From assembly GCF_000317795.1 (NCBI RefSeq), contig NC_019791.1, forward strand, positions 682,001 to 746,000: a stretch of DNA of 64,000 bases. The letters run 5' to 3'. This document shows, one piece after another, positions 6,091 to 8,192 of the stretch; the stretch's first letter is position 1, and the number at the start of each line of letters is the position of its first letter. Below the pieces are notes generated by a model. That model worked only from the letters and a program-made list of their open reading frames with translations. It made no database searches and was not told the origin of the DNA. A program made the translations under genes and the position numbers. The stretch is from Caldisphaera lagunensis DSM 15908. GTDB lineage: Archaea; Thermoproteota; Thermoprotei_A; Sulfolobales; Acidilobaceae.

Positions 6091-6423
6091 ATGAGGATTG
6101 CTTTAGTATATGATGAGGAGCAAAACCTAAAGCCACTCGATGAAGGAGAAATTCTAGCAATAATTGATGAGGAACAAGAGGTAGTTGAGCAATACGAGAA
6201 TCCAGGATTTAAGATAGGAAAAGATGTTACAATGGATGCTATATTGCAGCTAGGCGCTCAGGCAGTTATTGTTAAGCAAGGCTATTTAGATCAGAAGTCT
6301 TATGATTTATCTAAAGGACACTTATCATATATGTTAATTAACAAATATGATACTTTAACTGATATTATTGAAAATTTAGATGATGTAAAGTCGAAAGCTA
6401 TTGATGAATTAACTCAATTCTAA
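6091..6423 (+). CDS. NifX/NifB-like (dinitrogenase Fe-Mo cofactor fold) domain protein
   Basis: 110-residue single-domain protein. MRIALVYDEEQNLKPLDEGEILAIIDEEQEVVEQYENPG is the beta strand layout of the NifX-like fold, and MDAILQLGAQAVIVKQGYLDQKSYDLSKG matches its later glycine-containing loop. Free-standing members occur in many archaea that do not fix nitrogen, so a cofactor or iron-sulfur trafficking role is only an inference. ATG 6091 has AT-rich sequence with a TATA-like ATATATACTTTAAAA about 30 bases upstream and no clear ribosome binding site, so it is probably leaderless. Confidence 0.6.
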   Translation: MRIALVYDEEQNLKPLDEGEILAIIDEEQEVVEQYENPGFKIGKDVTMDAILQLGAQAVIVKQGYLDQKSYDLSKGHLSYMLINKYDTLTDIIENLDDVKSKAIDELTQF

Positions 6424-6484
6424 GCATTTATTTTTATAGATAATTTTATTTTGTCCTGTTTTATAAATATATTAGGGTAAAATT

Positions 6485-7027
6485 ATGCACATGTTTAAGT
6501 TAAACAACACAGTCATATTAATAAAATTGGGTGATATAACTCAAGAAGAAGTTGAGGCTATTGTGAATCCAGCTAATTCATATCTAATTATGGGTGGAGG
6601 AGTTGCTGGTGCTATAAAAAAGAAAGGAGGAAAAATTATAGAAGAGGAAGCATTAAAATACTCTCCAATAGACATAGGGAAAGCAGTATTAACCAATGCA
6701 GGAAAGTTGAAAGCAAGATTTGTTATACATTCCCCTACAATGAAATATCCTGGTGAATTAACCAATGAAAATAATGTTAGGTCTTCAATAAAAGCAGCTT
6801 TAAAAATTGCATTAGAAAAGGGAATAAAATCTATAGCATTTCCTGGAATGGGTACTGGTGTTGGAGGTATTTCATATAATTTGGGTGCAAAAATTCTTAT
6901 AGAGGAGATAAAAGAATTTGTTGAAAAAAATGATCATTTTGAAATAATAGAAATTGTTGCATATGAAAAAGAATTTTATGATGAATTAGAAAAATATGCG
7001 GTTTCATTGCTAAGTAATAGGATATAA
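6485..7027 (+). CDS. macrodomain (ADP-ribose binding) protein
   Basis: 180-residue stand-alone macrodomain. Diagnostic segments are LGDITQEEVEAIVNPANSYLIMGGGVAGAIKKKGG (adenine/ribose pocket and glycine loop) and SIAFPGMGTGVGGISYNLGAKILIEEI (phosphate loop). Such proteins hydrolyse O-acetyl-ADP-ribose, ADP-ribosylated proteins or ADP-ribose 1-phosphate. ATG 6485 is the first start; the ATG at 6491 is equally possible. The next gene starts 32 bases downstream, so they may be cotranscribed. Confidence 0.9.
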   Translation: MHMFKLNNTVILIKLGDITQEEVEAIVNPANSYLIMGGGVAGAIKKKGGKIIEEEALKYSPIDIGKAVLTNAGKLKARFVIHSPTMKYPGELTNENNVRSSIKAALKIALEKGIKSIAFPGMGTGVGGISYNLGAKILIEEIKEFVEKNDHFEIIEIVAYEKEFYDELEKYAVSLLSNRI

Positions 7028-7058: not shown

Positions 7059-8192
7059 ATGGAGACAGATAAGAATTACAAGTTTAAATGTATAAAATGC
7101 GGTTTCGAATCATATGAAGAAGTATTAAAATGCCCAAGATGCGGAGGGCCGATCCAAATTGTTTATGATAATCTAGAATGGGTAATTGATTCAAAAATTC
7201 CATCTATGTGGAGATATAAAAGCTTACTTCCTAAATCTGATAAAATAATTAGTTTTAACGAGGGACTTACTCCTATAAGAAAAATTTTTGGTGTTTTGTG
7301 CAAATTAGAAACTAATAATCCAACAGGATTATATGCAGATAGGGCTTCATCAATCATAGTTTCTTCTTTTAAAAATAAAATAATAGAAACTAGATATGAA
7401 GAAGATTTTACTTTATCATTGGCCTATTATTCAAAGAAAGCTGGGATTAAATTAAAAGTAAACGTTATACCTGATAATGTAGACCCCCAAGATTTGATAA
7501 TAATAGCAAAACTAGGCTCTGATATATCGTTTATAAATGAAATGGAAAAAATGGAATTGGAATATGAAAACCCCTATACAATAGAAGGATTAAAAACAAT
7601 ATCATATGAAATTTATGAAAAAAATCCTAAAGTAGAAAAAATTTATGTCCCAGCGCAATCTGGAACATTGGTATATGCATTAAGTAAAGGATTTTATGAA
7701 ATAAAACAAATAAAAAAGGATTTTAATGAATACGAATTAATAGCAGTTAAACTCCGTCATAGTAATATACCAGAAATATTAAATTATTCCAAATACAAAA
7801 TAAAAATTTCTGAAGTATCATCTAAAGAAGCTTTAGAGTCTATGATACATTTGTCTAAAAAAGGGTTTAATTTAAAGCCATTGGCATCTTCAGCATATGC
7901 GTTGGCTAAAATTGAAGGTAATGGAATCTCCATTATAACAGGAAATAGAAAAATATCCATGCATGAGAGTAAAAAATATTCTGAATTAAAAAAAGACATA
8001 ATGAATATATTTTCTGATAATAAGAAAAGAACTGCATATGAAATTTGGTTGGAGCTTAATAAATATTCACTTAAAGGTATTTATAAATCATTAAATATGA
8101 TGGTAAACAATGGAGAATTATGTGAAGAACCTATATTAAGAGGAGAAAGGAAGATAAAGGTATATTGGAAATGTGAAGATTCTTTACTTTAG
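7059..8192 (+). CDS. threonine synthase-like pseudoenzyme fused to a C-terminal winged helix
   Basis: 377 residues. An N-terminal zinc ribbon (CIKCG at 11-15, CPRCGG at 25-30) and WRYKSLLP...NEGLTPI are those of threonine synthase. The PLP-lysine motif NPTGSFKDR of true enzymes reads NPTGLYADR here, with Ala93 in place of the lysine, and the PLP-phosphate loop STGNTSAS is replaced by RYEEDFTLS. It should therefore not work by PLP catalysis. The last about 65 residues (SELKKDIMNIFSDNKKRTAYEIWLELNK... to the end) look like a winged helix. A sensor or regulator role is inference. ATG 7059 follows GGTGG by eight bases. Confidence 0.75.
   Translation: METDKNYKFKCIKCGFESYEEVLKCPRCGGPIQIVYDNLEWVIDSKIPSMWRYKSLLPKSDKIISFNEGLTPIRKIFGVLCKLETNNPTGLYADRASSIIVSSFKNKIIETRYEEDFTLSLAYYSKKAGIKLKVNVIPDNVDPQDLIIIAKLGSDISFINEMEKMELEYENPYTIEGLKTISYEIYEKNPKVEKIYVPAQSGTLVYALSKGFYEIKQIKKDFNEYELIAVKLRHSNIPEILNYSKYKIKISEVSSKEALESMIHLSKKGFNLKPLASSAYALAKIEGNGISIITGNRKISMHESKKYSELKKDIMNIFSDNKKRTAYEIWLELNKYSLKGIYKSLNMMVNNGELCEEPILRGERKIKVYWKCEDSLL

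Follow-up and report, generated by a model that had tools for sequence, protein, structure and literature searches.

The gene at 7059-8192 of the window (the whole 64-kb stretch of DNA that was analyzed) very likely encodes an archaeal one-component transcription factor for vitamin B6 supply. It also seems probable, with somewhat less assurance, that this archaeal phylum independently evolved a B6 sensor from a dead threonine synthase. In this view a single ancestor, lysine-less and fused to a winged helix, would have given rise to two or more regulator lineages with different operators, which jointly mark pdxST and several previously unrecognised importers of B6 (ECF S component, APC permease, MFS carrier, ABC binding protein). 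We searched for homologues in turn in 60 relatives, 229 genomes of the class and 300 genomes of the phylum. The features of the gene and of its upstream region were as follows.

6091-6423, plus strand: upstream ORF of 110 aa; stays near the regulator in four same-genus genomes
6485-7027, plus strand: upstream ORF of 180 aa, candidate macrodomain-like protein (by eye); stops 31 bp upstream of the regulator ATG
7059-8192, plus strand: gene of the putative regulator, lysine-less and threonine-synthase-like, 377 aa, ATG start (ORF call and homology searches)
7089-7142, plus strand: zinc ribbon with Cys11, Cys14, Cys25 and Cys28 (near-invariant in 46 orthologues)
7200-7952, plus strand: PLP fold type II core, threonine-synthase-like, residues 48-298 (PF00291, Foldseek)
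7335-7337, plus strand: codon GCA of Ala93, which takes the place of the PLP Schiff-base lysine (alignment with ThrC rows)
7395-7409, plus strand: YEEDF, residues 113-117, in place of the STGNT loop of ThrC (alignment)
7653-7670, plus strand: AQSGTL, residues 199-204, in place of the GNAGN phosphate loop of ThrC (alignment)
7938-7940, plus strand: Thr294, at the retained pyridine-nitrogen contact position (Thr in 44 of 46 orthologues)
7983-8171, plus strand: predicted winged helix, residues 309-371 (AlphaFold2, Foldseek, homology to the winged helix of group B)

The original prediction described a zinc ribbon, a threonine-synthase fold and an NPTG...DR context, and we found all of them: the motif reads NPTG-x-Y-A-D-R and the four cysteines are in place. 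Fold type II homology to threonine synthase was detected with both Pfam (PALP domain, PF00291, E = 5e-19) and Foldseek. The top NCBIfam matches were threonine synthases, all far under their cut-offs (for PRK05638, 118 bits vs the curated cut-off of 421), and the core is approximately 60 residues shorter than that of ThrC. The upstream 180-aa ORF is possibly co-transcribed with the regulator. The ORF pair at 6091-7027 was found near the regulator in several same-genus genomes, and no link of this pair to B6 was seen.

We compared residues in 46 orthologues of the window protein, 22 rows of a second lysine-less group (group B, described below) and 12 canonical ThrC rows, including ThrC of the window's own genome. 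The Schiff-base position holds lysine in 12/12 canonical rows and Ala93 in the window protein. In the orthologues it is A, S, T, V, M or G (46/46). The claim that the PLP lysine is replaced by Ala93 was therefore borne out, and orthologues retaining the lysine were looked for and amounted to 0 of 46. Both cofactor loops are changed, STGNT of ThrC to YEEDF and GNAGN to QSGTL, in agreement with the predicted loss of the PLP-phosphate loop; Gly202 and Leu204 within AQSGTL are invariant. The kept ThrC positions are Lys82, Asn87, Asp94, Arg95, Ser120, Tyr124, Lys179, Thr180 and Thr294, the last being the position that touches the pyridine nitrogen in ThrC. Arg95, Lys179 and Glu176 are invariant core residues in the window group. 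Since these core residues are retained beside the lost lysine and loops, the pocket is remodelled and not destroyed. PLP itself may not be the ligand, because both PLP loops are changed in this orthologue group.

The C-terminal domain was analyzed in an AlphaFold2 model of the window protein built on 46 orthologues (pLDDT 90.8, pTM 0.88). The model ends in three helices followed by two strands (H309-320, H326-333, H338-350, E354-361, E364-371), with the conserved sequence TAYEIW...YTLRGVYKAL. With the whole model as a query, threonine synthases ranked first (Foldseek, E = 3e-17). Among the top Foldseek matches of the isolated C-terminal domain, almost all had a winged-helix fold (PadR, YodB, TFE, Fur; probability 1.00, best TM 0.75-0.78). 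The PadR profile PF03551 did not match the window protein, gave E = 0.04 in two orthologues and E = 1.6e-11 in a group B member (L051). A sequence search of the PDB with the winged helix alone as a query returned matches too weak to use. The claim of a winged helix at the C-terminus thus agrees with the predicted structure, and a different fold of this domain, which would have spoken against the claim, was not seen.

We found approximately 49 full or near-full orthologues in the class, distributed over many families, and further ones outside it. In all of these approximately 49 the lysine is missing while the winged helix is present. They form a single group in the tree (SH-aLRT 100), separate from ThrC and from group B; the core-domain tree does not fix where some members of group B branch with respect to ThrC. 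One scan of the genome contigs returned only one close relative. In addition, divergent lysine-less members (L213-L225; families f25 and f34) carry mostly NPTG-x-[FYI]-[MY]-DR and score about 290-330 bits. In those of families f25 and f34 we looked for pdxS linkage and for the operator motif and saw neither.

Group B comprises proteins of 430-480 aa in which R, L, I, F or Y replaces the lysine in 22/22 rows (loci include L049:7401-8705, L193:4057-5364 and L190:3803-5182). The PLP loops are largely retained in this group. Its members reach PRK05638 scores of 695 (L049) and 699 bits, above the cut-off given before, and the NCBI label 'threonine synthase' on the PRK05638 group looks wrong. The winged helices of group B and of the window group are homologous (hhalign 97.9%, E = 5e-13), which favours a single ancestral fusion. 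Further, in 13 of 23 loci the group B gene directly adjoins a gene of the ECF S family that also occurs behind the operator described below, and in most of these a palindrome TTAAAG-N6-CTTTAA lies approximately 43-61 bp before the S gene. The loci with this candidate second operator are L192, L194, L195, L193, L049, L199, L201 and L203. It is difficult to account for two lysine-less lineages beside one transporter family unless both have a role in B6.

Neighbour clustering placed PdxS and PdxT, the subunits of PLP synthase, beside 8 of the 17 first loci. Among the 229 genomes of the class, the regulator lies within approximately 5 kb of pdxS in 30 of the 36 that have both. The genes usually share one operon, arranged either as pdxS-pdxT-REG or as REG-pdxS-pdxT, with gaps mostly below 60 bp. 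There were 14 regulator genomes without pdxS, including the window's own and complete Acidilobus-like ones. One genome (G138) has a second, frame-broken copy of the regulator (L118:4022-5967) beside a weak PdxT-like ORF with no pdxS nearby, and holds an intact copy elsewhere (L094).

Next to the TATA box, 54-61 bp ahead of pdxS, there is a near-perfect palindrome, TATTGAACGTTCAATA. It was first noticed by eye upstream of pdxS and tested afterwards; the scans were pattern searches. The exact 13-mer WTTGAACGTTCAA was present in 27 of 229 genomes, namely in 24 of 50 with the regulator and in 3 of 179 others (Fisher p = 1e-15, a value which overstates independence because the genomes are related). 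With the relaxed pattern YTGAACGTTCAR we detected 43 sites in the 50 regulator genomes vs 5 for the reversed control. By our count, 40 of the 43 sites are at candidate genes for B6 supply or, in one case (G128), just ahead of the regulator gene itself, and three are at neither. Sites in G133 (C20:62235), G059 (C84:5762), G140 (C98:4435), G210 and G214 are not at a B6 gene and were rejected as chance occurrences.

In operons of the order REG-pdxS-pdxT the site is between REG and pdxS (G034, G083, G116, G124). The site thus lies before pdxS in either operon order, and its position is tied to pdxS and not to the regulator. Genomes with an unlinked regulator (G156, G161, G166) likewise have the site ahead of pdxS. 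In 49 aligned promoters the site is mostly at -54 to -61 from the start codon, with the TATA box at a fixed spacing, so a bound protein would touch the BRE/TATA region. Such a placement is compatible with a repressor that blocks TFB/TBP and also with an activator bound next to the BRE on its upstream side. Outside the class, the operator accompanies pdxS in two further families; the regulator, pdxS and TGAACGTTCA occur together in G379, G352 and G397. No recognisable site was detected in some regulator genomes (G042, G138, G162). In one genome of family f7 (G193) the palindrome precedes a truncated pdxS (L132:3840) and the regulator was not detected.

In the window's own genome, a search with a 14-mer allowing 2 mismatches gave 9 matches, no better than the 11 of the control. 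The useful sites in this genome came from orthologous promoters and the relaxed 12-mer. No site beyond chance was observed within the 64-kb window, which makes control of its own promoter or of its neighbours by the regulator improbable here.

Other sites precede several types of transporter genes. In two genomes without pdxS (G043, G129) and also in G166, a site lies before the gene of an ECF S component, with the genes of the matching ATPase and membrane partner next in line. Seven genomes, five of the same genus (the window's own included) and two Acidilobus-like, have a site before an APC-type permease; in the own genome this is the gene at L187:2236-3609 (about C1:114735-116108), with the site TTGAACGTTTAA at -57. 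An MFS transporter near a class V aminotransferase is preceded by a site in the own genome, in two same-genus and in three Acidilobus-like genomes. In the own genome the MFS transporter (C1:887152-888366) and the adjacent transaminase-like gene form a cluster (L175:1253-3694, C1:887152-889593). The best NCBIfam match of this class V aminotransferase is pyridoxamine--pyruvate transaminase (E = 5e-80), at 269 bits and under the NCBI cut-off of 600. Three genomes have a site before an ABC solute-binding protein.

The ECF S, APC and MFS families carry many different substrates. It is plausible, given the shared operator and the one pathway gene, that B6 is the substrate of the ECF, APC, MFS and ABC transporters. 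The APC-type permease is a candidate importer of B6 for an organism whose genome has no PLP synthase, and the MFS transporter with the transaminase-like gene a candidate B6 salvage cluster. HmpT, an ECF transporter, was described as carrying pyridoxamine (PMC4860826), and a PLP-importing ABC system was described in Actinobacillus (PMC8427247); because these two are known, the ECF and ABC types are plausible for B6.

We propose that a threonine-synthase-like dimer with no PLP chemistry left would serve as the sensor, its likeliest ligand being PLP or a different B6 vitamer, bound with no Schiff base. The dimer's pair of C-terminal winged helices would grip the two TTGAAC half-sites of TATTGAACGTTCAATA. 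As the operator adjoins the BRE on its upstream side and overlaps part of it, a few bases ahead of the TATA box, the bound protein would have to affect loading of TBP/TFB. Binding would most likely depend on the B6 level, so that pdxST or B6 import genes are expressed only under B6 shortage. For the window's own organism, in which pdxS is absent, we predict as targets the APC-type permease (C1:114735-116099) and the MFS transporter beside the transaminase-like gene. We slightly favour repression by the B6-bound protein over activation by the B6-free protein. Either sign is possible, since the apo form of bacterial PdxR activates pdxST and PLP cancels the activation (PMC5320631). The suggestion in the original prediction that an enzyme fold was reused as a ligand-sensing transcription factor is supported by the evidence. 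The pdxST operon context, the conserved operator and the transporters behind the same operator point to vitamin B6. Among the three ligands it named, PLP is favoured by the regulon, while nothing points to threonine or homoserine phosphate.

An unlikely but serious alternative is that the same transcription factor, set in the same operons, senses threonine, O-phosphohomoserine, another amino acid or a substrate of PdxST; the reason for its control over B6 genes would then be that PLP enzymes work in amino-acid metabolism. Descent of the fold from threonine synthase would agree with this, as would the invariance of Arg95, Lys179 and Glu176 while the PLP loops are altered in the window group. 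However, we observed no recurrent threonine or homoserine gene beside the regulator in the compared neighbourhoods and none behind the examined sites; a regulator of threonine was rejected. Further, genomes without pdxS keep the site at transporters near a gene similar to a B6-vitamer transaminase, and group B largely retains the PLP loops, both of which argue for B6 sensing.

It is considerably less probable that the palindrome is the target of an unlinked transcription factor, with the pseudoenzyme as its PLP-sensing partner. Fold type II enzymes are known as partners of regulators, as CysK is of CymR in Bacillus. However, every intact orthologue has a winged helix of its own, presence of the palindrome tracks presence of the regulator gene, and among the compared loci pdxST has no other HTH gene as a recurrent neighbour.

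The own-genome gene could also be a decaying relic left after loss of pdxST, as this genome has no pdxS and the gene is away from any pdxST neighbourhood. We consider this very improbable: the ORF is intact, it is 86, 69 and 54% identical to three same-genus copies with which it shares the invariant residues, and the permease and MFS promoters keep their sites at -57 and -58, respectively, across the genus. A protein that is still an enzyme, either threonine synthase or another PLP lyase working without the usual lysine, is hardly credible and was rejected, as against the NCBI naming of group B and the conservation of much of the core stand the loss of lysine in 46/46 of the window group and 22/22 of group B, the change of both cofactor loops in the window group and an intact, lysine-bearing ThrC in the own genome (L002, C1:1021835). 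A random fusion was likewise rejected.

The one-component B6 regulator therefore remains the preferred reading, and the window protein family is probably a new family of transcription factors derived from PLP enzymes. The literature searched contained neither a threonine-synthase-like regulator nor an archaeal regulator of B6 or PLP supply, in line with the earlier statement that no regulator of such design is described. MocR factors were reported absent from Archaea (PMC5320631), and B6 transporters were called an unsolved puzzle in most prokaryotes (PMC9997740). If our reading is true, it fills the gap of an archaeal regulator of PLP supply, gives testable candidates for the missing B6 transporters, corrects the 'threonine synthase' label on part of the family and shows that a PLP enzyme fold became a transcription factor a second, independent time.

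With ThrC the window protein shares a homologous core (NPTG, DR, EG.KT, Thr294), a ThrC-type zinc ribbon and the best Foldseek matches, but the Schiff-base lysine is replaced, the loops are changed, the core is shortened, a winged helix is added and the gene lies in a B6-gene context. Group B is similarly lysine-less, of the same fold and with a homologous C-terminal winged helix; in contrast, it largely keeps the PLP loops, neighbours an ECF transporter and not pdxST, and has another operator. The winged helix of the window protein is closest to PadR by fold, and that of group B also by Pfam. PadR dimerises through its own C-terminal helices, whereas in the window protein the enzyme fold would be the sensor. 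The nearest functional parallel is MocR/PdxR, which in bacteria controls pdxST together with B6 salvage and transport genes (PMC5320631). Both systems combine a PLP-enzyme fold fused to a winged helix with linkage to B6 genes and a conserved operator. However, the MocR sensor is a fold type I aminotransferase with an N-terminal GntR winged helix, while the window protein is of fold type II, lysine-less, with a zinc ribbon and a C-terminal, PadR-like winged helix. The window family is thus an independent invention and not a homologue of MocR/PdxR.
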